Assembly: GCF_025791835.1 (NCBI RefSeq)
Contig: NZ_JAOXLP010000036.1
Location: 1-27,547, forward strand
Source of the DNA: Roseomonas xinghualingensis
GTDB lineage: Bacteria > Pseudomonadota > Alphaproteobacteria > Acetobacterales > Acetobacteraceae
Reading direction: 5' to 3'
Length of the DNA: 27,547 bases
Position numbers and translations under genes: made by a program. Below, one piece after another: positions 3,360 through 27,547 of the stretch. Within the stretch, counting starts at the first letter, position 1. Every line of letters starts with the position of its first letter. The notes under the pieces were generated by a model. That model searched no databases. It had not been told where the DNA came from and saw nothing but the letters and a program-made list of their open reading frames with translations.

Positions 3360-3395
3360 GCCGTCCTCCATCCCCTCTTTTTCTTTCGCGCCGGA

Positions 3396-4667: not shown

Positions 4668-4712
4668 GCGGACGCCTCCTCCCTCTTGGAGATGAGGTCA
4701 CCACGCCTGCTG

Positions 4713-4755
4713 CTGTACAGGTAGTGACAGATTCCGTGATTCGGGACCAGTACAG
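4713..4755. promoter_or_regulatory. Candidate operator in the divergent intergenic region
   Basis: The 100-bp gap between the reductase start and the MocR-type regulator start contains CTGTACAG (4713-4720, a perfect palindrome) and a second GTACAG at 4750-4755. The two GTACAG hexamers are in direct orientation 35 bp apart, with a related TGACAG at 4725-4730 between them. MocR-type regulators often bind paired direct repeats in such divergent promoters. The assignment is by position and pattern only. Confidence 0.45.
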
Positions 4756-4767
4756 AAAGGGGCGGGC

Positions 4768-6207: not shown

Positions 6208-6531
6208 AGCTGCAGCGCCGGACAGGCGATCGAGTGGCGGACCTGCGGTGAAAGAGTGATCAGGAGGCCGCGCCTCCCACATCGGCGCCCACTGCCCAGG
6301 CATCAGCGCCGGCGCTGGCGGCGGCAGGGCGGATCGCCTTCTCCCTTCCCTCCCCCGTGTCTATGCGGGCCGGGATGACCGCGAGCCTGCCCTTCCTGGA
6401 TGCCGAGGTGCCGGCCGAGCGGGTGTGGTGGATCCAGGCCCCGCGGCGCGCCACCCCCGGCAGGCGGTGCGGATCGACTGCGTTGCATGGACCAGCTTGA
6501 AGGCGCAGGAGTGCCGCCGGCGGCTCCGCGA
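6208..6531. other. Gap between the MocR regulator and the IS5 transposase
   Basis: About 320 bp lie between the MocR-type gene and the end of the IS5 transposase. Both strands have short open frames, but none has a recognisable product or clear ribosome binding site. The stretch probably contains the 3' end of the IS5 element and some displaced DNA. No clean inverted repeat could be fixed by eye. Confidence 0.4.
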
Positions 6532-9374: not shown

Positions 9375-10546
9375 AGCGCCTTCTCCGCCCGCAACGCCGC
9401 CACTTCTTCCGGGGAGAAGCCGAACTCCGCCAGAATGGGATCCGTGTGCTCGCCGCGATCCGGGGTGGGACGCCTTGGATTCGTCACGCCCGGCATCTGG
9501 ATAGGCGTGCGTACGAGGTTGATTTCCCCCAGCGTCGGGTGCTGGACCGGGAAGCTGAGGCCAAGGTGCTGCACCTGCCGGTCTGCGAAGACCTGATCCA
9601 TGGAATAAACTGGACCGGTCGGCACGCCGGCCTTGTTCAGCCGCTCGATCCAGCTCTCCGCCGTGTCCTGCAGCAGCTTCGACTGAAGCACGGCGTTCAC
9701 CTTCGCCCTATTCGTTGAGCGCGCCGCTTCCGTGGCGAGCTCCGGGGCCTGGGCCTCGGCCCCGATATCCAGCGTCTCTACGATCCGGCGCCACATCTCA
9801 TCCCCGCCGGCCGCCAGATTGATCACGCCATCGGCCGTGTGGAACAGCCCCGTGGGCACCGTGGTCGGGTGGTCGTTGCCGGCCTGTTGCGGCACCTCCC
9901 GTGCCATTGTCCATCGGGTGGCCTGGAAGTCCATCATGGCGATCATCGCCTCGAGCAGCGAAGTGTGCACCCAGCGCCCCTTGCCGGTCCTTTCCCGCTC
10001 CAACAGGGCAATCAGGATGCCGATCGCGCAGAACAGGCCCGAAGTGAGGTCCGCTACGGGGATTCCGACGCGGACCGGCCCCTGGCCGGGCAGGCCGGTG
10101 ACGGACATCAGGCCACCCATGCCCTGCGCGATCTGGTCGAAGCCCGGCCGCCGGGCATAGGGGCCGTCCTGGCCGAAGCCGGAGATGGAGCCGAGTACGA
10201 TGCGCGGGTTGATTGCGGCCAGCGCGTCATAGCCGATGCCCAGCCGGTCCTTCACGTCAGGACGGTAGTTCTCCACCACCACATCGGCCTGTTCCACCAG
10301 GCGGCGGAAGGCAGCAAGCCCCTGGGGGTGCTTCAGGTTCAGCGTGATGCTGCGCTTGTTGCGATGGACGTGCTGGTAATCCGGGCCGTTGCGGGCACCG
10401 CCCATGCCCTTGCCCGTATCGACCTCATCCGGGGCTTCGATCTTGATGCAGTCGGCTCCCCAGTCGGCAAGCTGGCGCACGCAGGTAGGACCGGACCGGA
10501 CGCGGGTAAGGTCCAGCACCTTGATATGGGAAAGCGGCAGGGCCAT
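9371..10546 (-). CDS. Family III CoA-transferase (CaiB/BaiF)
   Basis: This 391-residue protein transfers CoA between carboxylic acids. It has the N-terminal L-S-H-I-K-V-L-D-L-T-R start, the K-I-E-A-P segment, S-I-T-L-N-L-K-H-P-Q-G, and V-V-V-E-N-Y-R-P. The catalytic aspartate lies in G-I-P-V-A-D166-L-T-S-G. The ATG at 10546 is preferred over one five codons upstream because it overlaps the hyuA stop by 1 bp (TGATG) and matches the family N-terminus. With the following crotonase it suggests that the acid released by the Hyu enzyme is converted to a CoA ester and processed further. The substrate is unknown. Confidence 0.9.
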   Translation of the reverse strand: MALPLSHIKVLDLTRVRSGPTCVRQLADWGADCIKIEAPDEVDTGKGMGGARNGPDYQHVHRNKRSITLNLKHPQGLAAFRRLVEQADVVVENYRPDVKDRLGIGYDALAAINPRIVLGSISGFGQDGPYARRPGFDQIAQGMGGLMSVTGLPGQGPVRVGIPVADLTSGLFCAIGILIALLERERTGKGRWVHTSLLEAMIAMMDFQATRWTMAREVPQQAGNDHPTTVPTGLFHTADGVINLAAGGDEMWRRIVETLDIGAEAQAPELATEAARSTNRAKVNAVLQSKLLQDTAESWIERLNKAGVPTGPVYSMDQVFADRQVQHLGLSFPVQHPTLGEINLVRTPIQMPGVTNPRRPTPDRGEHTDPILAEFGFSPEEVAALRAEKAL

Positions 10547-12651
10547 CAGGCGGTCTCGCACTCGCGGGCCACAGCGGTGGCGGGTTGGGTCAGGTGGATA
10601 GCGATATTGCCGCCCGCCTCCACCACGGCGCGCGCGCCGGGCGGGATGAGCAGAGTGGACATGGCTTCCTCGACGATGGCGGGGCCGGCGATTTCCGTGC
10701 CCGCCGCGAGACGGCGGCGATCCAGGACCGGCACTTCATGCTCGACCTGGCCGAAGCGTGCCAGGCGGGTGCCCGTGCGCGGGTCACCCTTGGCGGCTTC
10801 CGGAACCTCCGGATCCAGGCTGCTCCCTGCCGTGCTGCCGGTGGCGGAGACCCGGATATTGATGATCTCGATGGCAGCGACGGCCGGCCTGCGGGAGAAG
10901 ACGCGCTCATATCCTGCCAGGAAGGCCCCGCGAATCATTGCCTCCTTGCTGGCGTCATAGGGCCCTGACGGCAGTTCGGTGATCAGCTCATAGCCCTGGC
11001 CTACAAAGCGGAGATCGGCGGCGCGCCGCAGGATGGGCTGCGTCCCGCCCCCGATGGTCGCGGCGATAACAGCGCGGGCTTCCGCCTCCAGCTTCGCGTA
11101 GGCGTCCTCCAGCGCGGACCAGTCCATCCCATCCAACCGGCGCGAGATGGTGGTTACGCGATCCACCCGCGCAGGGGCGAGCAGCAGGCCCAGAGCGGAG
11201 GCGACACCAGCACCGGGTGGGCAAATCACCTGCGTGATCCCCAGCCGCCGGGCCAGCTCGCAGCCATGAAGCGGGCCGCCTCCACCGGTGACCAGCAGGG
11301 CGAAGTCCCGCGGATCATGCCCCTGCTCCGCTACGTGAACGCGGGCGGCCGCCGCCATGGTCTCGTTCACCACGGCATGGATGCCGGCAGCGGTCTGCGG
11401 CACGTCCAGCCCCGCCGCGGAGGCCAGGGCGCCGACCGAGCTTCGCGCCGCCTCCATGCTCAGCTTCATCGTGCCGCCGGCAAAGGTCTCGGCATCGAGA
11501 TAGCCAAGCAGCAGGTTGCCATCGGTGACCGTGGGCTCCATCCCGCCACGCCCGTAGCAGGCTGGACCGGGCACGGAGCTGGCGCTGCGAGGACCGACCT
11601 TCAGCAGCCCGAGCGCGTCATGGGCCGCGATGGAGCCGCCCCCTGCCCCGATCTCGATCAGCTCGATCGTGGAGATGGTCAGCGGCAGGCCACTGCCGGC
11701 GGTGAAGCGGCGCTCCCGCCCGGCCTCGAACTTATGGACCACCAGGGGCTCGCCGCCATGAACCAGCGCCAGCTTGGCCGTGGTGCCTCCCAGATCGAAG
11801 GCCAGCAGGTCCCGGCAGCCGGAACGCTCGCCGAAGAAGGCAGCCGAGAGCGCGCCAGCGGCCGGGCCGCTTTCCAGCAGTTGTACGGGTACGCGCTTTG
11901 CCTCGTCTACATGGGTCAGGCCGCCATTGGACAGCATCATGAAGAGCGGAGCGGTGATCCCCAACGCAGCCAGATCGCCAGAGAGGCGGTTCAGGTACTT
12001 CTCAGCCAGCGGCTTCACATAGGCATTAGCCACGGTGGTTGAAGTCCGGTCGAACTCGCGGATCTGCGGGGCAACATCGCTTGAGAGGGACAGGATCACC
12101 GAAGGGTAGCGCTCCGCCACCAGCCGCGCTGCCTCCTGCTCATGGGCGGGGTTCGCATAGGCGTGCAGAAAGGCGATGGCGATGGACTCGATACCCTGCC
12201 CCACGAGCTTCCCTGCCGCATCCAGGACACTGACCGCATCCAGGGGAATCTCGACGGTCCCATCCGGCGCCAGCCGCTCAATGGCCTCGAGCCGGCGTGA
12301 GCGACGAACGAGGGGCTGCGGCAGCGGCAGGTGCAGGTCGTAGAGCTCGTATTTCCGCTCATGGCCGATTTCGAGCGTATCCCGGAAACCGGCGGTGGTG
12401 ATGAGGCCGGTCGGCGCGCCGCGGCGCTCGATCAGGGCATTGGTAAACAGCGTCGTTGCATGGACCACGCGCGTCACCCCGGCGGCCTCCGTCCCTTCCT
12501 GCGCGAAAAGGTGCCGGATGCCGGCCACCACGCCCCTGGCCGGATCGGCTGGGGTGGTCAGCTCCTTATGGGCAGCGAAGCGGCCTGTCGTGTCGTCATA
12601 AAGCACGATGTCGGTGAAGGTGCCGCCGATATCGATGGCCAGGGCGCTCAT
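10546..12651 (-). CDS. hyuA: Hydantoinase/oxoprolinase subunit A (HyuA family), copy 1
   Basis: This 701-residue ATP-dependent subunit belongs to the N-methylhydantoinase A / 5-oxoprolinase / acetophenone carboxylase family. It begins with the actin-like phosphate-binding D-I-G-G-T-F-T-D (residues 7-14). It also has V-V-H-A-T-T-L-F-T-N-A-L-I-E-R, a second nucleotide motif F-D-L-G-G-T-T-A-K, and G-A-G-G-G-S-I-A. Such proteins act as a complex with a HyuB partner to hydrolyse cyclic amides or carboxylate ketones using ATP. The start overlaps the upstream hyuB stop by 4 bp. It is closely related along its length to the second copy at 18245-20332. The exact substrate cannot be assigned. Confidence 0.9.
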   Translation of the reverse strand: MSALAIDIGGTFTDIVLYDDTTGRFAAHKELTTPADPARGVVAGIRHLFAQEGTEAAGVTRVVHATTLFTNALIERRGAPTGLITTAGFRDTLEIGHERKYELYDLHLPLPQPLVRRSRRLEAIERLAPDGTVEIPLDAVSVLDAAGKLVGQGIESIAIAFLHAYANPAHEQEAARLVAERYPSVILSLSSDVAPQIREFDRTSTTVANAYVKPLAEKYLNRLSGDLAALGITAPLFMMLSNGGLTHVDEAKRVPVQLLESGPAAGALSAAFFGERSGCRDLLAFDLGGTTAKLALVHGGEPLVVHKFEAGRERRFTAGSGLPLTISTIELIEIGAGGGSIAAHDALGLLKVGPRSASSVPGPACYGRGGMEPTVTDGNLLLGYLDAETFAGGTMKLSMEAARSSVGALASAAGLDVPQTAAGIHAVVNETMAAAARVHVAEQGHDPRDFALLVTGGGGPLHGCELARRLGITQVICPPGAGVASALGLLLAPARVDRVTTISRRLDGMDWSALEDAYAKLEAEARAVIAATIGGGTQPILRRAADLRFVGQGYELITELPSGPYDASKEAMIRGAFLAGYERVFSRRPAVAAIEIINIRVSATGSTAGSSLDPEVPEAAKGDPRTGTRLARFGQVEHEVPVLDRRRLAAGTEIAGPAIVEEAMSTLLIPPGARAVVEAGGNIAIHLTQPATAVARECETA

Positions 12652-14264
12652 GCCGGCATCTCCGTAACCAGGCCGTCTTCTTGGTCCCGCTGGACGTGGA
12701 TCGGGTCGCGTTGAGAGGGGGGGCCAAAGCCGCCTCCGCCGGGGGTTCGCAACTCCACCGTGCTGCCGGGATTGAGGATGTGCTGCCGCTTCGGGTCCAC
12801 CATGGCACCGTCGATCAGCACGGCGCCCGGCTCCCCTGCCCCGCCACCTGCAAGGCCACGCGCGGCGGCCTCGGGCTTCGTCCGCTCAGCCATGAAGGTG
12901 ATTGCAACCGGCGTCGCGGAGCGGCTCTCGAAAGCCCATTCCTGCCCGGTCCCGCCACGATGCATGCCGGCGCCGCCGGTTCCCGTCCGCAGGCGCCGGT
13001 GGCGGATGCGGAACGGATTGCCTTGCTCGATCATCTCCACCGGCGCGGCGGAGACGTTGGATGGCCAGGAGAGGACATTCGCCCCGTCATGTTCCACCGA
13101 CGCGCCATAACCGCCATTCATGAAGAACTGGTTGGCGATGGGAGAGCCGTCCGGCCGCGTGCCCGCGAAGTTCAGGCTCCAGAGCGGCGAGCCGACGCCG
13201 GCGATCACCTGTTCCGGAATGGCTTGCGCCAGGGCCTCCAGGATCATCGGCGGGATGAAGTGCCCGGTCAGCGCACGATTGGCGCCCGCCGCGGGCGGGG
13301 TGGAATTCAGGATGCAACCCCTCGGCGCTGATACCGTAATGGGACGGAAGGCGCCTTCATTATTCGGCACCTCCGGGCACAACGCCGCTTTCACGGCGAA
13401 TGCCGTGTAGGCCATCGTGTAGGCGAGGCATACATTGATGCCGCGCGGCACCTGCGGGTCCGTGCCCTCGTAATCGGCCAGAATGCTGTCGCCGTGCTTT
13501 TTCAGCGCCAGCTTGAGGCGGATGGGCTGCTCCAGCCCGTCGGTCACGACCTCCGAATGGTAGATGCCATCCGGCACGGCACGGATTGCAGCACGTGTCG
13601 CCTTCTCCGAACGCGCATGGATTTCGTCCGCCAGCGCCACCAGGTCGTCGAGCCCATGCTCGGCCAGGAGGGTACGGAGCCGCTTTTCCATCAGGTCCAG
13701 CGCTGTGAACTGGGCGTAGAGGTCGCCCAGGGTCTGGTCAGGAACACGAGTGTTCTTGCGCAGGAACTTCACGAAGGTCTCGTCGATCGTGCCGGCGCGG
13801 ACCACCTTCATGATCGGAATCTGCAATCCCTCCTCAAAAACCTCCCGCGATTCCGCAGTGCGGATGCGCCCACCGATATCGGGCGCATGGGCGACAGATC
13901 CGGCAAAACCCAGCAGACGTCCGCCGAGCATGATGGGCTTGGCCACCGTGATATCCGGCAGATGGCCGGTGCCGAGCCAGATGTCGTTGGTGATGAGGAT
14001 ATCCCCTTCCTCCAGCGTCTCCGGCGGGTACTCGGCCAGGAAATGGCCGATCGTGCGTGGCACGGTGCAGAGGAAGGAGGGCACGCCATCCGTGGCCTGC
14101 ACGAGCGAATGGCCGCGCGCATCGGTCAGCACGCAGGCGAAGTCATGCGACTCCCGGACGATGGTGGAGAAGGAGGTGCGAAGCAGCGCCGCCGCCGCCT
14201 CGTCCACGATTGAGACGAGGCGGGTCCAGAGCAGCTCGAGCGTGACCGGATCGAAGGTCTTCAT
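12648..14264 (-). CDS. hyuB: Hydantoinase/oxoprolinase subunit B (HyuB family), copy 1
   Basis: This 538-residue partner of the HyuA protein encoded directly downstream has the family hallmarks. These are F-D-P-V-T-L-E-L-L-W-T-R-L at the N-terminus, R-T-S-F-S-T-I-V-R-E-S-x-D-F-A, and L-I-T-N-D-I-W-L-G-T-G-H-L-P-D-I-T (metal/active-site region), with T-P-G-G-G-G-F-G-P close to the C-terminus. The frame is open for another 58 codons upstream, but the ATG at 14264 has a GAGGT site and lies 7 bp after the Bug receptor stop. HyuA/HyuB pairs form large ATP-dependent cytoplasmic complexes such as caprolactamase, hydantoinase or acetophenone carboxylase. Confidence 0.9.
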   Translation of the reverse strand: MKTFDPVTLELLWTRLVSIVDEAAAALLRTSFSTIVRESHDFACVLTDARGHSLVQATDGVPSFLCTVPRTIGHFLAEYPPETLEEGDILITNDIWLGTGHLPDITVAKPIMLGGRLLGFAGSVAHAPDIGGRIRTAESREVFEEGLQIPIMKVVRAGTIDETFVKFLRKNTRVPDQTLGDLYAQFTALDLMEKRLRTLLAEHGLDDLVALADEIHARSEKATRAAIRAVPDGIYHSEVVTDGLEQPIRLKLALKKHGDSILADYEGTDPQVPRGINVCLAYTMAYTAFAVKAALCPEVPNNEGAFRPITVSAPRGCILNSTPPAAGANRALTGHFIPPMILEALAQAIPEQVIAGVGSPLWSLNFAGTRPDGSPIANQFFMNGGYGASVEHDGANVLSWPSNVSAAPVEMIEQGNPFRIRHRRLRTGTGGAGMHRGGTGQEWAFESRSATPVAITFMAERTKPEAAARGLAGGGAGEPGAVLIDGAMVDPKRQHILNPGSTVELRTPGGGGFGPPSQRDPIHVQRDQEDGLVTEMPA

Positions 14265-14271
14265 AGGTACC

Positions 14272-15252
14272 TCAGTTGAGCCGAATGTTCGCGGCCTGGA
14301 TGACGCGGTTCCACTTTTCCGTCTCGGCGGCGAAGAAGCGACGGGATTCAGCGACCGTTCCGCCCACCGGTGTCGCCCCAAGCTGCCGGAGCCGCTGCTG
14401 AACCGCCGGCTGCGCCAGCACCTTGCGGGCATCGGCATTCAGGCGCTCAAGAAGCGGCTCGGGAACGGTGCCCGGAGCGGCGAGCGTCATCCAGGCAGTG
14501 GCGACATAGCCCTCCACCCCCGCCTCAATGGCGGTCGGCACGCCGGGCAGCGCGTCGGAACGTGTGGCGGAGGTCAGGGCAAGGGGACGCACGGCGTTGC
14601 CCTGCGCCAGCGGCGGAACGGTGGGCAGGTTCTCGAACATCACGTTCACGCTGCCAGCGACAAGATCGTTCAGCGCCATGGAGCTGCCCCGGTAAGGCAC
14701 ATGCGACATCTGCACGCCGGCGCTCAGCAGGAACAGTTCGCCCGCCATATGGGTAGAACTGCCATTGCCGGCAGAGGCGAAGGTGAGCTGGCCTGGCTTC
14801 TGCCGTGCCAGAGCGACCAGTTCCCGCAGGTTCCGCGCCGGCAGCGAGGGATTCACGATGATGACGTTGGGCACGTCGATCAGGACGGTGACGGGTGCGA
14901 TATCCTTGGTCGGATCATAGGTCAGCCGCGGATAGATCGCACTGGCGGCATGGATGCCAACGGTGCCGATCAGCAGCGTGTAGCCGTCGCCCGGGGAGCG
15001 GGCGACCACCTCGGCGCCGATGTTGCCGCCCGCACCGGGGCGGTTCTCCACGACGACGGGCTGCCCCCAGAGGGCACCGAGATGTTCGGCCATGATCCGC
15101 CCGGACACATCCGCGGTGCCGCCTGGAGAAAAGGGCACCACGATGCGAACCGGCTTCGTGGGAAAGGCAGGCGCTGGCGGCTGTCCCTGGGCCAGGCCCG
15201 GCGCAGCATTGGCGACCACAAGCAACACGGCAACAAATAAGCAACGCAGCAT
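14272..15252 (-). CDS. Bug/TctC-family periplasmic solute-binding protein (2)
   Basis: This 326-residue Bug receptor has a Sec signal peptide (hydrophobic V-A-V-L-L-V-V-A-N-A, likely cleavage after L-A-Q or nearby). The mature protein starts with F-P-T-K-P-V-R-I-V-V-P-F-S-P-G-G-T-A-D. Further family features are V-V-E-N-R-P-G-A-G-G-N-I-G and V-P-Y-R-G-S-S-M-A. The ATG at 15252 follows AAGGGGATC. It is the first structural gene of the leftward hyuBA operon and probably delivers or senses the compound that HyuAB attacks. The gap to hyuB is 7 bp. There is no adjacent membrane transporter. Confidence 0.88.
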   Translation of the reverse strand: MLRCLFVAVLLVVANAAPGLAQGQPPAPAFPTKPVRIVVPFSPGGTADVSGRIMAEHLGALWGQPVVVENRPGAGGNIGAEVVARSPGDGYTLLIGTVGIHAASAIYPRLTYDPTKDIAPVTVLIDVPNVIIVNPSLPARNLRELVALARQKPGQLTFASAGNGSSTHMAGELFLLSAGVQMSHVPYRGSSMALNDLVAGSVNVMFENLPTVPPLAQGNAVRPLALTSATRSDALPGVPTAIEAGVEGYVATAWMTLAAPGTVPEPLLERLNADARKVLAQPAVQQRLRQLGATPVGGTVAESRRFFAAETEKWNRVIQAANIRLN

Positions 15253-18244: not shown

Positions 18245-20332
18245 ATGACCGCGTCCCTTTCGCCCGGTTCCCTGTCGCTGGGCATCGATATCGGTGGAAC
18301 CTTCACCGATCTTGTCATCCTGAACCCTGCCGATGGTCGTGCCTCCATCTGGAAGGAGAGTACGACGCCCGATGATCCCTCCCGCGGGGCCATCAAGGGT
18401 CTGCAGCAATTGCTTACCCGCAACGGGATCCAGGCACAGTCGATCGGTCGGGTGGTTCACGCCACCACCCTCTTCACCAATGCCCTGATCGAGCGAAAGG
18501 GCGCGGCCACGGGCCTCCTGACGACAGCGGGCTTCGCTGACGTCCTGGAAATCGCGCGGGAGCGGAAGTACGAGCTCTACGACGTGTTCCTGGAGATGCC
18601 GAAGCCCCTCGTTCCCCGTCCCTGGCGGCGGGAGGCGAAGGAGCGGCTGGCACCCGATGGCAGCATTGAAGTACCGCTCGACGTGAAGGCCGCGCTGGCT
18701 GAGGTGGAGGAGCTGGTGGCGCAAGGCGTGACCAGCCTCGCCATCTGCTTCCTGCACGCCTATGCCAACCCGGTGCATGAGCGCGTGGCGGCCGCGGCCA
18801 TCGTGAAACGTTTCCCGCAACTTTCCATTTCCCTGTCCTGCGACATCGCGCCCGAGATCCGCGAGTACCCGCGCGCGGTTACCACAGTCGCCAACGCCTA
18901 TGTCCGCCCGATCGCGGAGACCTATCTGGACACGCTCGAGGCCGCTCTGAAGCGCGCCGGCATTCCGGGCGGCCTCTTCCTCATGCTTTCCAATGGCGGT
19001 CTGACCCATGTGGCGGAAGCCAAGCGGGCGCCTGTGCAGCTGCTGGAGAGCGGCCCCGCTGCGGGCGCCCTGGCCGGTGCCTGGTTCGGCCGCCATGCAG
19101 GGCTTGAGCGGGTCCTGGCCTTCGACATGGGCGGAACAACCGCCAAGCTCGCCCTGGTGGACGATGGAGAGCCGCTGGTGGCCTGGGGCTTTGAGGCGGC
19201 GCGTACCAAGCGCTTCCTCCGCGGCTCCGGCCTGCCCATCCAGATCGCGACCGTGGAGTTGATCGAGATCGGCGCCGGCGGTGGTTCCATCGCGCGCCCC
19301 TCCGAACTCGGTACGCTGCATGTCGGCCCGGAGAGCGCAGGCGCACAGCCCGGCCCTGTTTGCTACGGCCGCGGCGGCACCGAGCCGACAGTGACGGACA
19401 GCGACCTGGCACTGGGTTACCTGAACCCGGACTTCTTCCTGGGTGGAACGATGAGGATCGATCCCGGCCCCGCCATGGCGGCGCTGGACAGGCTTTCCAC
19501 GCGGCTCGGGCTGGAAGTGAGCCGTGGCGCTCCGGGCATCCATGATGTGGTGAACGAGAACATGGCGGGTGCCGCGCGTGTCGCTATCGCGGAGCGGGGC
19601 CGTATCCCGCGTGACTATGCACTGCTGGCAACCGGCGGTGCCGCGCCCGTCCATGCGTGGAATGTTGGCACCAAGCTCGGCGTCTCTCGTGTCGTCTGCC
19701 CGCCTGGCGCCGGGGCAGGCAGCACCATTGGCATGCTGATGGCCCCTGCCCGCATCGACCGCGTGGCCTCGCGCAACGAGCCGTTCGCGACGGCGCGTTG
19801 GGACGAGATTACCGCTACTTTCGAGATGCTGGAGACGGAAGCCCTGTCGGTCATCGGCGACACGGGCGCGGATCTCTCCTGCCCCAGCGTCCGCCGGCTG
19901 GCGGACATGCGCTATGTCGGCCAGGGTTCCGAGATCACCGTGGCACTTCCCTATGTACTGGAGCCAAAGAGCGTGCTCTCCGCCTTTGAGCAGGCTTATC
20001 GACAGCTCTTCGGCCGCACGCCACCAGGCGCAAACGTCCAGTTCGTGGCGCTGCGGCTTTCCGTCTCAGCGCCCATGCCCGGTGCGGGCGAGACCCTGCA
20101 TATCGGGAGCGGCAGCGCCGGCACCACGGCACTGAAGGGCCGCCGTCAGGTCCATTTCCCCGATATGGGCGTCATTGAGACAGCGGTCTATGACCGCTAC
20201 GCCCTGAAGCCCGGGATGCAACTCGAAGGCCCAGCGGTCTTCGAGGAGAATGAGAGCACTTTTGTCGTCGGTCCTGACGCGCTCATCAGCGTGCTGCCCG
20301 ACGGCTCCATCCTGGCGGAGCGCGTGGCATGA
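18245..20332 (+). CDS. hyuA: Hydantoinase/oxoprolinase subunit A (HyuA family), copy 2
   Basis: This 695-residue HyuA-family ATP-dependent subunit shares its motifs with the copy at 10546-12651: D-I-G-G-T-F-T-D near residue 14, V-V-H-A-T-T-L-F-T-N-A-L-I-E-R, F-D-M-G-G-T-T-A-K-L-A-L-V and G-A-G-G-G-S-I-A. By eye the two copies align along most of their length, with long identical blocks, so they are paralogues or were acquired separately. The ATG at 18245 has an AAGGAAG site. The stop overlaps the hyuB start by 4 bp. It forms the catalytic complex with the following HyuB; the substrate is not defined. Confidence 0.9.
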   Translation: MTASLSPGSLSLGIDIGGTFTDLVILNPADGRASIWKESTTPDDPSRGAIKGLQQLLTRNGIQAQSIGRVVHATTLFTNALIERKGAATGLLTTAGFADVLEIARERKYELYDVFLEMPKPLVPRPWRREAKERLAPDGSIEVPLDVKAALAEVEELVAQGVTSLAICFLHAYANPVHERVAAAAIVKRFPQLSISLSCDIAPEIREYPRAVTTVANAYVRPIAETYLDTLEAALKRAGIPGGLFLMLSNGGLTHVAEAKRAPVQLLESGPAAGALAGAWFGRHAGLERVLAFDMGGTTAKLALVDDGEPLVAWGFEAARTKRFLRGSGLPIQIATVELIEIGAGGGSIARPSELGTLHVGPESAGAQPGPVCYGRGGTEPTVTDSDLALGYLNPDFFLGGTMRIDPGPAMAALDRLSTRLGLEVSRGAPGIHDVVNENMAGAARVAIAERGRIPRDYALLATGGAAPVHAWNVGTKLGVSRVVCPPGAGAGSTIGMLMAPARIDRVASRNEPFATARWDEITATFEMLETEALSVIGDTGADLSCPSVRRLADMRYVGQGSEITVALPYVLEPKSVLSAFEQAYRQLFGRTPPGANVQFVALRLSVSAPMPGAGETLHIGSGSAGTTALKGRRQVHFPDMGVIETAVYDRYALKPGMQLEGPAVFEENESTFVVGPDALISVLPDGSILAERVA

Positions 20333-21975
20333 ACGCGGTGGACAATGTTCGGCAGTTCGACGCCGTGGAGATCGAGCTGCTTTGGCGGCGCCTTATCTCG
20401 CTCGTCGATGAGGCGGCGGCGGCGCTGGTGCGCACCAGCTTCTCCACTCTCGTGCGGGAGAGCTACGACTTCTCCTGTGTGGTGACGGACGCCAACGGGC
20501 AGTCTCTGGTGCAGGCGACGGAAAGCATTCCGAGCTTCATCGGCACCCTGCCCGAGACGGTGAAGCACTTCATCCGGCATTTCCCGGAGGAAAGCCTGCA
20601 GCCCGGCGACGTGCTGATCACCAACGATCTCTGGCTTGGCACCGGCCACCTGCCCGATATCACCGTGGCCAAGCCGATCTTCCGCAATGGCAGGCTGGTG
20701 GCGTTCAGCGCCTCCACCGCCCATGCGCCCGATATCGGCGGCAAGATCCGCAGCCCTGAGCCGCGCGAGGTCTTCGAGGAAGGGCTCCAGATCCCGCCCA
20801 TGAAGCTGCTTCGTGCCGGGCAGCAGGATGACACGCTGGTCTCGATCATCCGCAAGAACGTGCGCACGCCCGACCAGACCATGGGCGATCTCTGGGCACA
20901 GTTGGTGGCGCTGGACCTGATGGAGGAGCGCCTCCTCATCCTCATGGAGCAGGCCGGGCTCGATCACCTTCGGGACCTCGCGGCCGAGATTCACACGCGC
21001 TGCGAGACAGCGATGCGCAACGCGATCTCCGCGCTGCCGGATGGAACCTATACCAGTTCCCTCCAGACGGATGGGCTGATGGACAAGCCCATCACCCTGC
21101 GCCTGGCGCTGACAATCCAGGGCGACTCCATCACGGCCGACTTCACGGGCACGGATCCTCAGGTGGACCGCGCGATCAACTGTGCGCTCTGCTACACCTA
21201 TGCAATGACGATGTACGGGGTGAAGGTTTGCACCAGCCCCAACCTTCCAAACAATGAGGGCGCCTGGCGCCCCATCCGCATCGAGGCGCCAGCCGGCTGC
21301 ATCGTGAATCCAGTCTTCCCGGCCTCTGGCGGCTCCCGCATGCTGATCGGGCACTACATTCCCATGCTTGTTTTCGGCTGCCTCGGTCAGGTGGTGCCGG
21401 AGCGGGTGATGGCGGCCTGCGGATCGCCCATGTGGGGCATGAACCAGTCCGGCGTGGATGCAGACGGTAAGCCCTACGCCAACATGTTCTTCTTCAACGG
21501 CGGTATGGGAGCGAATATGCAAGGCGACGGCATCTCATGCCTTTCCTGGCCTTCGAACGTCTCCTCCACACCGATCGAGATCACCGAGCACATTGCCCCG
21601 CTGCGGGTGCATCATAAGCGGCTACGCCCGAACAGCGGCGGCCCTGGCCGCCACCGGGGCGGGTTGGGACAGGAGGTGCTGATCGAAAGCCGGTCCGAAT
21701 CTCCGATTGCTGTTTCGTTCCTTGCCGAACGTACCCTCTTCCCTGCCTTCGGTATCGAAGGCGGGGAGGCCGGTGCGCCTGGTCTCCTCCACATCAACGA
21801 TCAGGCCGTTGATCCCAAGCGACAGTATGTGCTGCTTCGGGGAGACACCGTTCTGATGGGGACACCGGGTGGAGGGGGGCATGGTCCGGCTTCCGAGCGT
21901 GGGGCGCGCGAGTTGGAGGCAGACCGGTGCGCCGGGTACATCAAGTGTCCGTCGTCGAAGGCTTGGGGACAGTGA
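20329..21975 (+). CDS. hyuB: Hydantoinase/oxoprolinase subunit B (HyuB family), copy 2
   Basis: This 548-residue HyuB-family subunit is coupled to hyuA by an ATGA overlap. The family motifs are present: V-E-I-E-L-L-W-R-R-L, R-T-S-F-S-T-L-V-R-E-S-Y-D-F-S, L-I-T-N-D-L-W-L-G-T-G-H-L-P-D-I-T, and near the end G-T-P-G-G-G-G-H-G-P-A-S. The C-terminal tail beyond that glycine run is about 30 residues and includes Cys residues and the non-typical ending S-S-K-A-W-G-Q. The stop codon is followed immediately by an IS6-type terminus, so the extreme C-terminus may have been altered by insertion, although the core is complete. Confidence 0.9.
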   Translation: MNAVDNVRQFDAVEIELLWRRLISLVDEAAAALVRTSFSTLVRESYDFSCVVTDANGQSLVQATESIPSFIGTLPETVKHFIRHFPEESLQPGDVLITNDLWLGTGHLPDITVAKPIFRNGRLVAFSASTAHAPDIGGKIRSPEPREVFEEGLQIPPMKLLRAGQQDDTLVSIIRKNVRTPDQTMGDLWAQLVALDLMEERLLILMEQAGLDHLRDLAAEIHTRCETAMRNAISALPDGTYTSSLQTDGLMDKPITLRLALTIQGDSITADFTGTDPQVDRAINCALCYTYAMTMYGVKVCTSPNLPNNEGAWRPIRIEAPAGCIVNPVFPASGGSRMLIGHYIPMLVFGCLGQVVPERVMAACGSPMWGMNQSGVDADGKPYANMFFFNGGMGANMQGDGISCLSWPSNVSSTPIEITEHIAPLRVHHKRLRPNSGGPGRHRGGLGQEVLIESRSESPIAVSFLAERTLFPAFGIEGGEAGAPGLLHINDQAVDPKRQYVLLRGDTVLMGTPGGGGHGPASERGARELEADRCAGYIKCPSSKAWGQ

Positions 21976-21976
21976 T

Positions 21977-22152
21977 GGGTCTGTCTTAACGGAGGCATTG
22001 TCATGTAGTTGGCTCTGGCCGGAATGAAGCGGCCGAGCCACGCTGGCGGGATACCGTCCGAGCTCACCACCTATCCTGGCTACCACTTTCCGGCCGAGGT
22101 CATCCACCGCGCCATTTTGTGCATAAACGCCCAACCAGGACCCCTACGATAA
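21977..22152 (+). pseudogene. 5' fragment of an IS6-family element
   Basis: GGGTCTGTC at 21977 looks like an IS6-family terminal repeat. It is followed by an ATG at 22024 opening a 42-codon frame whose first 31 residues, including Y-P-G-Y-H-F-P-A-E-V-I-H-R-A-I, are the N-terminus of an IS6-family transposase. After about 22116 the similarity stops abruptly and the frame ends at 22152. This marks a deletion or recombination breakpoint. It is a different IS6 subgroup from the remnant at 7683-8488. Confidence 0.65.
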
Positions 22153-22163
22153 TTGACTGTAAA

Positions 22164-22231
22164 TCACTGATCTCACAGTGAATGTTGGCCATCGGGTGGG
22201 GTCCTGATCGGCGCCGACCGGGACCCCACCC
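22164..22231. repeat. Two hairpins in the junction region
   Basis: TCACTG (22164-22169) pairs with CAGTGA (22176-22181) around a 6-nt loop. Next, GGGTGGGGTCC (22194-22204) pairs perfectly over 11 bp with GGACCCCACCC (22221-22231); its 16-nt loop contains the palindrome CGGCGCCG. A short T run (TTTT) follows on the plus strand near 22241. The second structure could be a terminator or a recombination-related structure; no gene ends close enough to decide. Confidence 0.6.
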
Positions 22232-22290
22232 TCACGTCGGTTTTCTGCTGTAAGTCAACGCTATAGTCCGGCTTTGGGCAGGGTCCCGGT

Positions 22291-22590
22291 TCAGCGCCTC
22301 TTCACACTGAGAGGAACGGAAGTGAAAAGGACGTACCGGTCGGGTGATAGAGCCCGTATCTTCTGAATTTCAGTCTTCTGAAGGTGAGCCCGGAGAGCAC
22401 TCAGTCCAGACCCGGCGTAGTGCTTGCACTGGATTATGGTCTTCGTGCCCTCGGGACAGGAATACCGGAGGTCTATCCCCTGGTCGCGGCCAGGCTTGAA
22501 GGCTTCGAGCCGATGTCCCCATTCGGCCTGGAGGAGGTCCAGAGCCAGGGTCTCGAAGTCCACCGGGGACAAGCGGGTTAGGTCGTACAC
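22291..22590 (-). CDS. Mrr-like PD-(D/E)XK nuclease domain, truncated
   Basis: This 99-residue protein has a restriction-endonuclease-like (Mrr) domain. An N-terminal Y-D-L-T-R-L-S-P-V-D-F-E segment is followed by G-R-D-Q-G-I-D40 and I-I-Q54-C-K56-H-Y, the D...QxK catalytic core. In family members of this type the nuclease domain is normally the N-terminus of a longer defence protein, often with a STAND-type NTPase domain. Here the frame stops right after T-S-V-P-L-S-V, so only the nuclease part remains. A GTG at 22590 is chosen because GGAAGGA stands 7 bases upstream; the open frame itself extends to 22638. It may be a decayed defence gene or cargo of the neighbouring transposon. Confidence 0.62.
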   Translation of the reverse strand: MYDLTRLSPVDFETLALDLLQAEWGHRLEAFKPGRDQGIDLRYSCPEGTKTIIQCKHYAGSGLSALRAHLQKTEIQKIRALSPDRYVLFTSVPLSVKRR

Positions 22591-23199
22591 ATCCCCATCC
22601 TTCCAGCGCGGGCATCCGAACGCCCCAGTTCCGCGCACGCCACCAGCATCGTAGATGAACTCCAGCCGGAAGTATTCGCGTTGTATTCAGGCGCCCTTCA
22701 GGTGGAGTTGTGCCACCGACAAGCCATGGAAGAGGATATGCGGGGCCGCCATCCCGAGTGGACGGCATTTGTGTGCACGGCCGGTGCTACCGGGGAAGAA
22801 CTCGGTCGAGCACCCCACACGAAACACTCCAACGATTTCCAAAAGTAGTGCGAGCAGTCCATCACTGTTGGCGTCCTATACATTCGTGGTCGGGCGCCAA
22901 CACATGGGCAAACAGTCTGGAAGTTGGACAAACTATGGGTGGGCTCACTGGTCCGTCTCACGAATACTGCGAACTCGCACGTCGGGATTTCAAGATGTTA
23001 CGCAAAGCCGTCTACCTGAAGATGACAATAGCATCGCACAATAAATGCCAACATCAACTGCCAATCTCGCAATAAATGGCTATGGCATTCGCAGTCGGGC
23101 AGGCTCTGAAAGCGTTGCATCCCTCCGCGACGGTGACGCGCCGGAACGCCGCTTCGAAGGCCGCGTCTGTCTCGCCAGCCTCCGCCTCGCTCGCCGCCT
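22591..23199. other. Low-GC, gene-poor stretch beside the tni operon
   Basis: About 600 bp lie between the Mrr-like fragment and the end of the tniQ operon. Base composition is visibly less GC-rich than the rest of the window and no frame has a recognisable product or good start. Near 23022-23080 short related motifs occur: GACAATA (23024-23030), GCACAATAAATGCCA (23036-23050) and GCAATAAATGGC (23069-23080). The last two share AATAAATG and are 31 bp apart. Tn7-like element ends carry repeated transposase-binding sites of comparable length, so this could be part of a transposon end, but no terminal TGT/ACA and target duplication could be fixed. Confidence 0.35.
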
Positions 23200-25212
23200 C
23201 TATGCGCCGCTTCCCTTGCGGCTCCTTGCCAGCTTTGGTGGCGGGGTCGAAGCCCCCATCCCGGGCGTCCCCAGCGCGCCCCGTGCTGCCGCCAGTGCGG
23301 CCGCGACGCCCGGAACGCGCAACCAGCACCCAGGGGCGATCTCCGCGACCCCGAGCCGCCTCATGAATGCGGCAACCTCGCCGATTGCCATACCGCACTC
23401 GCGCGCTGCGTGGCCGGTGGTGACGTGCGCAACGAGGAACGCCTCGACGCTCTCCGACGACAGCCGGATCGACCCGGATGCAGCCCGGCGCCGACCACGA
23501 TCCGGGCCCGGTCCGTCGGCGCGCCGGATAAGATTGGAGGACAGCAGCGCCTTGAGAGTCCGCGTGCTGACGGCGAGCCTGGCCATGGCCTCTCGCTCCG
23601 TCATTGTGTCCTTCCGTGGCAGGCCCGCCGACGCGAGCAGGCCATCCAGCTCCGCACGCGAGAACAGGAACCGCTTCAACCCGATGACTCCGGAGTCGAG
23701 GGCGACTGGGGCGACTGGGGCGAGCCGTGCGTCGAGGACCCGACGCAACAACGTCGAGAGGTCGGTGCGGAGCGTCCTCACGAAGCTCAGGAGCGTGCCC
23801 GAGGCGCCTCCTCGACCGGCCTCGCCGGTCTGAGTTGGCTCGCCGATGCGGCGGAGCAACGCGTCAATGTCGCAACGGCCAAACAGAGCGACTCTCCCCA
23901 GGCCCTTGATGTCGACTCGGCGGGCACCCGGGAGGAGGCCCGCGCTTACGAGCCGGGTGAACCCCTTGTCCCAGATTCCCAATAGCGCCGCCGCCTGGCC
24001 GCCCGTGACGAGGCCCTTGCGTCGGAGTGCCTCCTCGCGGTCGAGGTCCGCCCCCCGCTCCACTCCGATCCGGAGAGCCTCGGTCAGCGGCACCGAGTTC
24101 CGAAACCGCTTGCCGTTGCCTAAACCTTTCGTTCTGATGCCGCCATCGTGAATCAGCTTGCACAGGGCCGCTGTTCTCAGCCCTGTAATGATCCTAGCCT
24201 GCCGCAATGACACAAAGCGCTCGACGCCGGAACCCCCGCCGCCCGCCGCGTCTGAAGTTTCGCCGTGATGGTCGAACTCGGCCCGAATGCCCGCGAACGC
24301 GGGGCGCGAGAGGGACTGAAGCAGGCCGCGGCGGATCCTGGCACGCGCCTGCCCAACATCGACCTGCTGCCGTGCCGCGTCAGAATCGGAGGCCCGGTCA
24401 ATAGCTTCGTGAAAAGAAATGGGCCAGTTCGCAAGCAGTATGGCGGCAGCGGCGACGACGTCCGCCGTCGCTAGCAGCGGGATAGACCGCGCCCTGCTCA
24501 CGGCGACCGGCACCTCCCCGCCCTGGAGCGCGAGCGTCCCGAGGCGCCCCAACAGGAGCAGCACGTCCTCAAGCCGCATGCCGGAGAGCAGGGCCTCCAG
24601 CCGACCGCATGCCGGGGGGCTCGGCTCGCCGATGCGCGGGGCGAGAGTCCGCATAAGTTCGGTGACCGCCGAAGGCACCGCCGGAGTCTCGCACGACATG
24701 AAGTCGTGACCGTCGCAGCACCGCACGAGGCTTCGCCTCAGCCACGTCAGCCGTTTTCCGCACCCCGGGCAGCACTCGAGCATCTGGCAGGCGTGCACCG
24801 GGCAAGCGATCCAGGCCTGAAGGTCCCAGGCAGCACGCAGGATGCCCCCCTCGCGGAGGCAGGCGGGACACGCGCGAGGATGGACCCGGTCGAACGCCTT
24901 CGTGCTCACGAGCATGCCGTTCGGAAGGCGCAGCCTGAGCCGCCCGACTGCCACAGTGCCGAGGTCATCGAGTTCGGTGGCATCGAAGCCGCACCAATTG
25001 CCGATCTGCGCCAACCTGGCTGAGGTAAGGACAAAAGCCTGGACCGAAGAGTTCCGGTATTTTGCAGCGTTCGAGATGGCTTCGTGCCTGCGGTACCCGT
25101 TCGCCTCCGACAACCGGAGAACCCAGCCGAGGGCGCTCTCCCCGCGAGCGGGCGGCGCACGCACGACGAGGCGGCTTCCTGGCGGCAGGAGGCCGTAGCG
25201 AGGCCGGGTCAT
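23200..25212 (-). CDS. tniQ: TniQ/TnsD-like transposition protein with C-terminal HTH array (1)
   Basis: This 670-residue protein is recognised by its N-terminal TniQ domain: G-E-S-A-L-G-W-V-L-R-L-S-E-A-N-G-Y (residues 24-40). Two zinc-binding clusters follow, C115-x2-C118 with C137-P-V-H140, and C148-x2-C151 with C165/C166 and H169. It is longer than typical TniQ (about 400 residues) and comparable with or larger than TnsD. The extra C-terminal half contains about four excisionase/MerR-like HTH units, near 333-383, 400-456, 535-595 and 598-645. These repeat a pattern of small residue-A-A-x-x-L-G and L-x-x-x-G-L/I. TniQ/TnsD proteins choose the insertion site and recruit the TniB/TnsC ATPase. 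The ATG at 25212 overlaps the upstream tniQ stop by 1 bp. Confidence 0.8.
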   Translation of the reverse strand: MTRPRYGLLPPGSRLVVRAPPARGESALGWVLRLSEANGYRRHEAISNAAKYRNSSVQAFVLTSARLAQIGNWCGFDATELDDLGTVAVGRLRLRLPNGMLVSTKAFDRVHPRACPACLREGGILRAAWDLQAWIACPVHACQMLECCPGCGKRLTWLRRSLVRCCDGHDFMSCETPAVPSAVTELMRTLAPRIGEPSPPACGRLEALLSGMRLEDVLLLLGRLGTLALQGGEVPVAVSRARSIPLLATADVVAAAAILLANWPISFHEAIDRASDSDAARQQVDVGQARARIRRGLLQSLSRPAFAGIRAEFDHHGETSDAAGGGGSGVERFVSLRQARIITGLRTAALCKLIHDGGIRTKGLGNGKRFRNSVPLTEALRIGVERGADLDREEALRRKGLVTGGQAAALLGIWDKGFTRLVSAGLLPGARRVDIKGLGRVALFGRCDIDALLRRIGEPTQTGEAGRGGASGTLLSFVRTLRTDLSTLLRRVLDARLAPVAPVALDSGVIGLKRFLFSRAELDGLLASAGLPRKDTMTEREAMARLAVSTRTLKALLSSNLIRRADGPGPDRGRRRAASGSIRLSSESVEAFLVAHVTTGHAARECGMAIGEVAAFMRRLGVAEIAPGCWLRVPGVAAALAAARGALGTPGMGASTPPPKLARSRKGSGA

Positions 25213-26984
25213 CAGGGACAGTCCGCGAGGCGCCAGACCGAGGACAGGCCCCGGCGCGGGTCGGGCGCTACGACGGGCCTCACACCGGCGGCTTCGAGGC
25301 GTCGGATGAGACTTCGGGTGCTCGTCCCGCGAGCGGCGGCGAGGGTACCGCTGGTGGCGTAGACTGCGGGGAACGCGGCGACCGAGGCGGCGCGCACCGC
25401 GCGCCGGGTCAGCGTCTGCCCCGGCGATGCACTGACGGTGAGGCAACCGGCTCCGACGAGGGCGGGAATCATTCGAGGATGCACCGCGAGGGCACGCGCC
25501 GCCTCCCGGACGGTCATTGTCGCCTCGGTCGCACCCGCCGCCAGTGTCGCGGGAACCGCGTAACGCGCGAGGGTCGGCGCACCCGGGGCCTTGGACAGGG
25601 CCAGGAGTTCCACTTTGCCACGGGCCGCCGCCAGGAGGGTTCCGACCAGCGCGGCGTGCCCGCGGCCCGCGAGGTCGGCAAGGCTCGGTCCTTCCGACGC
25701 CCGCCCGCTGCAAGCGGCGTCTAGTCGCCGCCCGAACTCAGTCACCGCGGACGGTTCAACGTAGGTGCCGGGGGTGCGGCCGGGCGGATTCCGCAGCGCC
25801 TCAAGCAGCCCGGCCCGGACAATCCGCCGCGCTTGACCGGGCGTGACGCCGAGTTGGCGGGCGGCCTCCGTGGCGGTGACGGCAGCCGCGCACCGCGCAC
25901 GGAGCGCCGCAATGTCTGTGGACTGGAACATTCGGAACAGGCGCCCGCCGCCGCGGACCGTACGGGCCGGGAGCAGTGCAGACGCGACGAGGCGCGGAAT
26001 GCGCCCTTTCGACACGCCGAGCCCCTGGGCGGCGTCCGCGGCCGTCAGCGGAGCCCCTTCCGGTCGGTCTATGTAAAGCGGGGACCACGGCTTCACCCGG
26101 CCGCCCTCCCAGCGGGCCAGCCAGTCACGCAACTCCCGGTGCAGGAAGGGGAACCCCGCCTCTTTGAGGGAGGCCAGCATGCGTCGCAGCTGCGGCCCGA
26201 ACGCACCTCTCACCCCGGCGCCCGAAGGCTCCCCGCCGCCGAGTGTCGCGAGCCAACGGTGCAGGCCGCCGGGCCAGTCCAGGAGGACAGGCGACGCGGC
26301 CTCGATCAGGGGCGCCGCCCGCCCCACTGGTAGCTTCCTCATATATACGCTGCGCCAGCCGCCCAGGTCGTCGGTGGCGTCCGCAGCGCACGCTGCGAAG
26401 AACCAGACGAGCCGCACGGCGGAGGCGGCGTCGCTCACAGGGGCGCCTCCAGGAGGCGGTTCGGTCCCGTCCAAGAGCGCCGCGACGACGCGGGCGACGC
26501 CGACCAGACCAAGCGCGGCCTGCTTTGGTTCAGCCTCCAGCAGGTCATGGCCACAGGCGCATCTCGCGAGGCCGGGACGGCACCAGCTAAGCGGAGTCCC
26601 GCACGCGGGGCACTCGTCGAAGAGCAGGGTTCCATGGTCCGGACAGGCGACGACCGCCCGGATGTCCCAGAGGCGGCGGACCCAGGGCTTGCCGCGCAGG
26701 CACGGGACGCAGATACGCGGTCGCACGGTGACCCTTGCGTCCTCGGGGAGCCCTCCGTCCCCTGCCACGACCGCGAGGGACTCCGGATCGGCGCCGGTGA
26801 GTGACGCGACACCCGCGAGCTGCCCGGGATCGCGCGCCCGTGCCGCGAGGCGGCCGAGTCGAAGTAGCCAGCGGTGGTCGCGCCCGCCGTTGAAGGACGA
26901 GATCCGGAGGAGGTAGCCATCGTAGGACTCGTCCGGCCCGGCGGGAGCAGCACGCACCGCAAGGCAGCCCCGGTGCCCGGTCAC
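25212..26984 (-). CDS. tniQ: TniQ/TnsD-like transposition protein with C-terminal HTH array (2)
   Basis: This second, divergent TniQ-like protein has 590 residues. The N-terminus has D-E-S-Y-D-G-Y-L-L-R-I (residues 18-28), then a zinc region with C92-x2-C95, C114-P-D-H117, C125-x2-C128 and C141/C143/H146. The C-terminal half again shows about four HTH-like units, near 312-365, 368-421, 489-541 and 545-587, for example T-A-T-E-A-A-R-Q-L-G-V-T and T-V-R-E-A-A-R-A-L-A-V-H. A GTG at 26984 is preferred to upstream ATGs because it overlaps the tniB stop (GTGA) and places the TniQ domain at the N-terminus. The two TniQ proteins resemble each other in layout but little in sequence, which suggests separate target-recognition duties. 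Confidence 0.78.
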   Translation of the reverse strand: MTGHRGCLAVRAAPAGPDESYDGYLLRISSFNGGRDHRWLLRLGRLAARARDPGQLAGVASLTGADPESLAVVAGDGGLPEDARVTVRPRICVPCLRGKPWVRRLWDIRAVVACPDHGTLLFDECPACGTPLSWCRPGLARCACGHDLLEAEPKQAALGLVGVARVVAALLDGTEPPPGGAPVSDAASAVRLVWFFAACAADATDDLGGWRSVYMRKLPVGRAAPLIEAASPVLLDWPGGLHRWLATLGGGEPSGAGVRGAFGPQLRRMLASLKEAGFPFLHRELRDWLARWEGGRVKPWSPLYIDRPEGAPLTAADAAQGLGVSKGRIPRLVASALLPARTVRGGGRLFRMFQSTDIAALRARCAAAVTATEAARQLGVTPGQARRIVRAGLLEALRNPPGRTPGTYVEPSAVTEFGRRLDAACSGRASEGPSLADLAGRGHAALVGTLLAAARGKVELLALSKAPGAPTLARYAVPATLAAGATEATMTVREAARALAVHPRMIPALVGAGCLTVSASPGQTLTRRAVRAASVAAFPAVYATSGTLAAARGTSTRSLIRRLEAAGVRPVVAPDPRRGLSSVWRLADCP

Positions 26985-27420
26985 TTGCTGAGGGCGGTGC
27001 GGGCGGCGCGTGCTCTGTCCTTCTTGGTGGAGCGCCTGCGGACCGACGCGAGCGGTGCCCTGTCGTCGGCCAGCGGCGGCGGCAGGTTGGGCAGCCCCCC
27101 GGGCTTCCCGTTGGGCACTCTCCATTTGAATTCCTCCTTGAAAGGGTTTTCAAGCCCGTAGCGGGATGTACTGAACGCCTTCGTGAAGGCCCGCTCCAGG
27201 AGAGGCCGGTCAATGACGGGATGAGCTTTGGGGTTGCTGATCGCGAGCTTCAGGGCCGTCCTGAGGAGCTTAACGAGGTAGCCCATGACGCCCCGGCTCG
27301 CGTAGAAGAACCGGAACGCGCGCTCGTCATTGACGCCGTCGTCGTTGTCGTCGGGTCGCACATCGGCCGCAAAGGGGATCGGCGAGGCACCCATGAAGCC
27401 GAGGAGGATGCCGATGAAGT
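26981..27420 (-). pseudogene. tniB: C-terminal part of a TniB/TnsC-like AAA+ ATPase, cut by IS66
   Basis: The last 145 residues of a TniB/TnsC-type transposition ATPase. Recognisable features are I-P-F followed by an acidic stretch, then F-R-F-F-Y-A-S-R-G-V-M-G-Y-L-V-K-L-L-R-T-A-L-K-L-A-I, the helical lid found after the AAA+ core, and a charged Lys/Arg-rich tail. The Walker motifs lie beyond the break. Homology ends at 27420, where the IS66 terminal repeat begins. It overlaps the downstream tniQ start by 4 bp, and the three genes form one operon. The call depends on the lid sequence and context, since the core is missing. Confidence 0.62.
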
Positions 27421-27547
27421 GTAAGCGAGGGCTACAGGCCCTTGCCGTGATTGGCTGACGCTCGGGGCGTTTTCGGGTCGGCCCAGCACCAGGGCATGAG
27501 CTCGTCGATGCGGCTGTTGGGCCAGCCCTCGACAAGGCGGGTCAGCA
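27421..27547 (-). mobile_element. End of an IS66-family element inserted in tniB
   Basis: The sequence starting at 27421, GTAAGCGAGGGCT, matches the GTAAGCG start of IS66-family terminal repeats. It lies 11 bp beyond the stop codon of an IS66-type transposase. The 8 bp before it (GATGAAGT, 27413-27420) would be one copy of the family's 8-bp target duplication; the other copy is outside the window. Confidence 0.75.
27432..27547 (-). CDS. tnpC: IS66-family transposase (TnpC), C-terminal fragment
   Basis: A 37-codon partial frame enters from the right edge and reads L-T-R-L-V-E-G-W-P-N-S-R-I-D-E-L-M-P-W-C-W, the conserved C-terminal signature of IS66 transposases (consensus around R-I-D-E-L-L-P-W), then ends with TAG at 27432. 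The rest of the gene lies outside the window. Confidence 0.75.
   Translation of the reverse strand, partial: LTRLVEGWPNSRIDELMPWCWADPKTPRASANHGKGL

Follow-up and report, generated by a model that had tools for sequence, protein, structure and literature searches.

A damaged Tn7-like transposon with paired long TnsD proteins and a probable attachment site at the 3′ end of gyrB

Paired tnsD genes beside a tnsC remnant

The window analysed here is the entire contig NZ_JAOXLP010000036.1 (27,547 bases; C59) of the Roseomonas xinghualingensis genome (G000), and its end holds part of what appears to be a Tn7-like transposon that homes to the gyrase gene gyrB. Three overlapping genes lie there on the minus strand, in the order TnsC/TniB-like ATPase remnant, TnsD-A (A) and TnsD-B (B). 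Much of their interpretation comes from comparison with Paracraurococcus sp. LOR1-02, which belongs to a different genus, and with two metagenomic proteins without genomic context, P0002, related to A (52%), and P0004, related to B. The coding features are as follows.

23200..25212 (-): TnsD-B (TniQ-B); ATG start, 670 amino acids (aa); TniQ domain at residues 18-143; relatives P0004 (37% identity) and LOR1-02 B (28%, 502 aa)
23275..24222 (-): helix-turn-helix (HTH) array of TnsD-B; five units, about residues 331-646, from the AlphaFold model and HTH_17
25212..26984 (-): TnsD-A (TniQ-A); GTG start, 590 aa; TniQ domain at residues 16-121; LOR1-02 ortholog 49% identical
25215..26048 (-): HTH array of TnsD-A; five units, residues 313-590, from the AlphaFold model, fold matches and unit profiles
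26981..27420 (-): C-terminal remnant of a TnsC/TniB-like ATPase, 146 aa; 51-53% identity to a LOR1-02 protein
27421..27547 (-): terminal part of an IS66-family element, which disrupts tnsC, with the contig stopping inside it; TnpC C-terminus at 27432-27545, end GTAAGCG at 27421 read from the sequence

Both gene junctions overlap, the stop codon of the remnant with the start of A (GTGA) and the stop of A with the start of B (TGATG), in agreement with the translational coupling proposed in an earlier reading of the letters alone (the sequence-only reading). That reading had also placed two TniQ/TnsD-like proteins at 23200..26984, and these coordinates are exact. It had further described a TniB-like ATPase upstream; the TnsC/TniB-like assignment stands by way of the LOR1-02 homolog, but what the window retains is only the C-terminal remnant. 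The remnant itself has no Pfam match, and the homolog, which is cut at its contig start, has a sub-threshold TniB match (20.5 bits, cut-off 22.4). The interrupting element is identified by a TnpC match to DDE_Tnp_IS66_C (PF13817; E 2e-5) that at 25.1 bits lies below the cut-off of 30, and by GTAAGCG, which we take to be an IS66-family end motif. With the truncated LOR1-02 protein as query, the stretch of tnsC that precedes the remnant was not found in the 99%-complete G000 assembly, where the TniB profile matches only contig C65 and, weakly, C52. No matching tnsB was found in G000 either: the Mu_C profile and the TnsB of a related element (G138, below) match only C65, which at about 2885-6500 carries a separate TniA-TniB-TniQ element. 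Because tnsC is interrupted by IS66 and the searches recovered neither its missing part nor a fitting tnsB, the window copy looks immobile and is probably dead.

Profile searches with hidden Markov models and structure prediction, both checks that the sequence-only reading had proposed, support its view of A and B as TnsD-type target selectors that combine a TniQ domain with an HTH array. Both proteins exceed the Pfam TniQ cut-off of 27 (A 33.8 bits, B 51.8 bits), and both exceed that of HTH_17, also 27, B barely so (A 45.8 bits, B 27.1 bits). The AlphaFold models consist of a TniQ core followed by repeated HTH units in the same order, about five in each protein instead of the roughly four first suggested. 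Read from the secondary structure of the models, the units span residues 313-367, 369-424, 425-482, 489-541 and 542-585 in A (mean predicted local distance difference test score, pLDDT, 74) and 333-385, 402-462, 475-530, 536-595 and 596-646 in B (mean pLDDT 68); in each protein, unit 3 is the least distinct. Fold matches link A unit 1 to BldC/Xis/MerR and A residues 488-555 to gpNu1. In profile comparisons built from orthologs only, A units 1, 2 and 4 resemble one another (91-97%) and match B units 2 and 4 (69-93%), not B unit 1 (14% or less); the B units are not recognisable as mutually similar (10% or less) and become so for units 1, 2 and 4 (72-95%) once distant relatives join the alignment. 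Reversed controls gave 3.3% or less in 25 pairs. Values between A and B units from alignments with distant relatives share rows and were set aside in favour of the ortholog-only ones.

Transposon ends and the insertion site beside gyrB

Downstream of B lie a transposon end, its target-site duplication and, outside it, a gene fragment.

22949..23093 (+): tnsD-side transposon end, tip 5′-TGGTCCGT at 22949; gapless match to the LOR1-02 end
23038..23078 (+): two RCAATAAATG repeats 31 bp apart (23038 and 23069), putative TnsB sites
22944..22948 (no strand): 5-bp target-site duplication CTCAC, the reverse complement of GTGAG; equals the GTGAG beside the gyrB-side tip on contig C33 of G000
22294..22638 (-): fragment of an Mrr-nSTAND3 gene (gene start) in the far flank; Mrr_cat 33.4 bits, cut-off 21

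The tnsD-side end is identical to that of LOR1-02 at 81 of 145 bases without gaps, against a maximum of 67 in 60 shuffles; outside the end the agreement falls to 5 of 20. The two RCAATAAATG repeats are the only exact copies in the whole G000 assembly, and LOR1-02 has one perfect and one two-mismatch copy that are likewise 31 bp apart. It was the Mrr-nSTAND3 flank of the window that led to gyrB as the target. Outside the tip lie the start of such a gene and, recognisable in one congener, its upstream DNA, and in two congeners the full gene stands directly after gyrB (L109 9263-11602; L110 848-3157). The arrangement suggests that tandem islands follow gyrB. In its PADLOC comparison the L109 gene matches PDC-S73 best (E 1.9e-137). 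Chromosomal synteny at hyuB was also tried as a way to read the insertion site and rejected: three congeners stop being collinear with the window at 21887-21942, and beyond that point, at 21944-22606 between hyuB and the Mrr fragment, one dispersed repeat of the genus succeeds another.

The other end of each element, the one away from tnsD, is adjacent to gyrB. On C33, GGTTGTTGTGAG separates the gyrB stop from the tip TGGTCCGT, so that the insertion lies 12 bp beyond the stop; in LOR1-02 the intervening sequence is CGTTGTTGTTCGG and the insertion lies at 13 bp. All four ends share the tip and, 9-13 bases inward of it, a TGCGAA block, and the 5-bp duplications agree at the paired tips of both elements (GTGAG/GTGAG in G000, TTCGG/TTCGG in LOR1-02). 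The target gene is accepted by the gyrB model and rejected by both parE models. Among 28 genomes queried gyrB was found in 27, and the 3′ flanks of 20 were read: the last 20 codons encode VEPRR-FIV-NALKVANLDV in all 20 (one variable residue per gap), and the tip is absent within 100 bp of gyrB in the 18 flanks other than these two. The glmS attachment site is not the site here. That elements in two genera inserted at nearly equal spacing from the gyrB stop, each with a duplication of its own, shows site-specific homing beside a conserved gene, and bears out the fixed chromosomal attachment site that the sequence-only reading had expected.

Several observations weigh against this interpretation. 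The insertions number two only. Each element is split over contigs, with its middle not assembled, and no tnsA, tnsB or complete tnsC of the element was seen in G000 or LOR1-02 (targeted searches covered tnsB and tnsC in G000). The split, together with the mobile sequences that gyrB flanks often hold in this family, might be taken to mean that the co-location arose by chance or through assembly and that A and B are ordinary TniQ remnants; two independent insertions with paired 5-bp duplications, shared tips, and spacings of 12 and 13 bp make this hardly credible. We put at about 0.85 the probability that the window holds the tnsD-side part of a Tn7-like transposon with its chromosomal attachment site at the gyrB 3′ end, a reading drawn from sequence comparison.

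Candidate readers of the gyrB site

By analogy with TnsD, which is described in the abstract of PMC2918618 as binding the end of the glmS coding region, the predicted winged-HTH array of A would bind the final stretch of gyrB codons and its TniQ domain would recruit TnsC. The lost TnsA/TnsB would then insert the element just downstream and leave gyrB undamaged, as Tn7 does at glmS. B, an ancient paralog, would most likely be a second selector that recognises targets of a different kind, or an accessory protein. We infer that A is the reader because conservation across the two genera is even over its core and units (core 49%, units 45-58%), while B has diverged (core 32%, units 23-27%) and has lost two units in LOR1-02, where it ends after unit 3, without units 4-5 and with no convincing remnant downstream.

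The metagenomic relative P0004 counts against this choice: it keeps all five B units, and its units 3-5 are 39-47% identical to those of B, compared with 40% for the core, with only units 1 (22%) and 2 (31%) lower. The same observation favours a different arrangement in which A and B, as a heterodimer or in series, jointly read one extended gyrB site, a bipartite sequence contacted by ten HTH units. Consistent with it, the genes overlap, both persist in two genera, and the arrays are broadly colinear. The greater divergence of B speaks against joint reading, as does the shortened B of LOR1-02, whose element nevertheless sits at gyrB, a loss that could post-date insertion; on balance a joint site seems rather unlikely. 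That B instead of A reads gyrB is more doubtful still, for despite its stronger TniQ match and its presence in both genera, its first unit is poorly conserved (22-26%), its LOR1-02 counterpart is shortened, and A is the evenly conserved partner. The duplicated five-unit pair could tentatively be seen as protein-only dual targeting, in which gyrB and a second target such as mobile plasmids are addressed without TnsE or CRISPR, whose role the second TnsD would replace.

The history of the pair was examined in a tree of 32 TniQ cores. The A clade has support of 99/90 (97/89 when it includes the single TnsD of G138, a long branch), the B clade 99/97, and the joint six-row clade 95/86, pointing to A and B as sister clades that stem from one duplication before the two elements diverged. 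In an earlier tree, a grouping of A with B that leaves out G138 could not be rejected (p 0.108), and the placement of G138 inside is therefore unsure. The grouping of G138 with A is a further point against linking this lineage to gyrB, since the G138 element lies on a contig other than that of gyrB and is without the tip; membership of the A clade alone thus does not imply gyrB targeting. This nearest single-TnsD element (G138:C256, L099, 2181-8495, minus strand) comprises a tnsA-like open reading frame (ORF), tnsB, tnsC and a 701-aa TnsD. Its tnsB has lost its reading frame close to a run of C and scores 14.9 bits against Mu_C (cut-off 21.7); the TnsA-like ORF scores 17.5 bits (cut-off 26.5).

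The paired TniQ proteins also call to mind a CRISPR-associated transposon (CAST) of the dual TniQ type whose cas genes would lie in the missing middle. Over about their first 350 positions the A and B profiles, each built with relatives, match solved TniQ chains, 7u5d best of all (E 1e-24 for A, 2.9e-24 for B), and the solved structures nearest to either core are TniQ proteins from type I-F3 CASTs. According to the portion of PMC11406308 consulted, some I-F3 CASTs pair a parE-homing TnsD with a second TniQ, and parE is a gyrB paralog. These CASTs and the present element thus share two TniQ-family proteins and homing beside a GyrB/ParE-type topoisomerase gene. They differ in that the target here is gyrB by a curated model and that both proteins are long, with long HTH arrays, neither being short. 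No cas-like ORF was noticed by eye, and with no dedicated cas search, among the ORFs read in the window and in loci L030, L138 and L140, and 21900-27547 holds no CRISPR-like array (two two-copy repeats only). A CAST is very improbable here.

Relatives, known systems and neighbouring islands

Close relatives are rare. Two short, narrow A peptide patterns were scanned against the genome contigs of 84,980 species, each represented once, a set from which G000 itself may be left out, and yielded one relative with context, LOR1-02, which has the same gene order (tnsC-A-B) and an A protein of 602 aa. TniQ is carried by 60 of 397 genomes of the family; among the matches listed, read by eye, adjacent long tniQ pairs occur only in G000 and LOR1-02, and in eight genomes a long tniQ has a short companion (337-397 aa) no more than about 7 kb away. 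A class-wide search with the A alignment matched 11 of 385 genomes, G000 included, with no close relative (best other E 4e-16), and a protein search with an 18-row alignment gave no further relatives at E 1e-10. Viral contigs scanned with B gave no match, and plasmid searches returned distant TniQ/TniB relatives only (5, 7 and 18 records).

Tn7 makes a 5-bp target duplication, inserts about 25 bp after the glmS stop, and has its tnsD-side end away from glmS. The present element resembles it in the duplication, in the orientation of its ends, in insertion just after a conserved essential gene, and in a TniQ domain joined to a C-terminal DNA-binding region, here predicted. It departs from Tn7 in its gyrB target, its two long TnsD proteins, its tip TGGTCCGT and the spacing of 12-13 bp. 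The sequence-only reading had suggested that this may be an undescribed family of target selectors, which the literature does not support as such: the sections of Faure et al. 2023 (PMC10293859) available to us report 1,048 tandem tniQ/tnsD loci, with "two tnsD genes" as a named category, and multi-HTH C-terminal tails of TnsD. They attribute tandem paralogous selectors to in-situ duplication, the second protein usually being much smaller. The window and LOR1-02 share with these loci the tandem paralogs downstream of tnsC, and differ from them in the size of both proteins (590-670 aa with about five HTH units each in the window, 602 and 502 aa in LOR1-02). The paired-tnsD architecture alone is therefore not new; the new part is the gyrB target. 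No publication joining gyrB to TnsD/TniQ targeting was found in a search largely outside subscription literature and supplements, which is not proof of absence. The word gyrB is counted zero times in PMC10293859, supplements outside the count, and the main text of a Tn7-like cargo survey (PMC8649781) has neither "gyrB" nor "gyrase". The excerpted part of an Annual Review article (PMC11406308) names glmS, tRNA and parE homing, and PMC12452197, as far as its excerpt extends, uses gyrB as a tree marker.

The window thus appears to hold a damaged element from a rare Tn7-like lineage that carries two long TnsD proteins side by side and has its attachment site at gyrB. For such a lineage, with two full-size selectors, a precise attachment site at the gyrB 3′ end and defined ends are now at hand. 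Protein-only, site-specific insertion beside a universal gene would be useful for genome engineering, and the A/B pair offers a way to ask how HTH arrays encode targets and how selectors diverge once they are duplicated.

In some relatives, further TniQ genes and genes of defence type stand directly after gyrB, which suggests that the region downstream of gyrB is a shared island hot spot. In one congener (G303:C41, L139) a short TniQ gene (9776-10636, 286 aa, 33.7 bits) lies about 130 bp from the gyrB stop (gyrB at 10766), with a long TniQ 30 kb away on the same contig. Another Tn7-like element may occupy the gyrB site there; no far copy of its tip was found in the 32 kb examined. In G206:C276 (L142/L034) a tip TGTGGGCGG, presumably Tn7-like, lies 7 bp after gyrB, and 8-16 kb downstream are a tnsA-like ORF (recognised by eye), tnsB, tnsC, a 643-aa TnsD and a 339-aa TniQ; a matching far end was not found in the stretch examined.

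The gyrB-side cargo of LOR1-02 (L140 1819-7596) includes an AAA-peptidase M41 protein, two proteins with sub-threshold Xre/MbcA-type antitoxin matches and one that matches a type II restriction enzyme weakly (PADLOC E 6e-8); two of six cargo ORFs have no Pfam match. Elsewhere in the window, 10546-14438 and 18245-21975 hold what we take to be two paralogous hydantoinase/oxoprolinase-like gene pairs in opposite orientation, each adjoining a presumed tripartite-type solute-binding protein.

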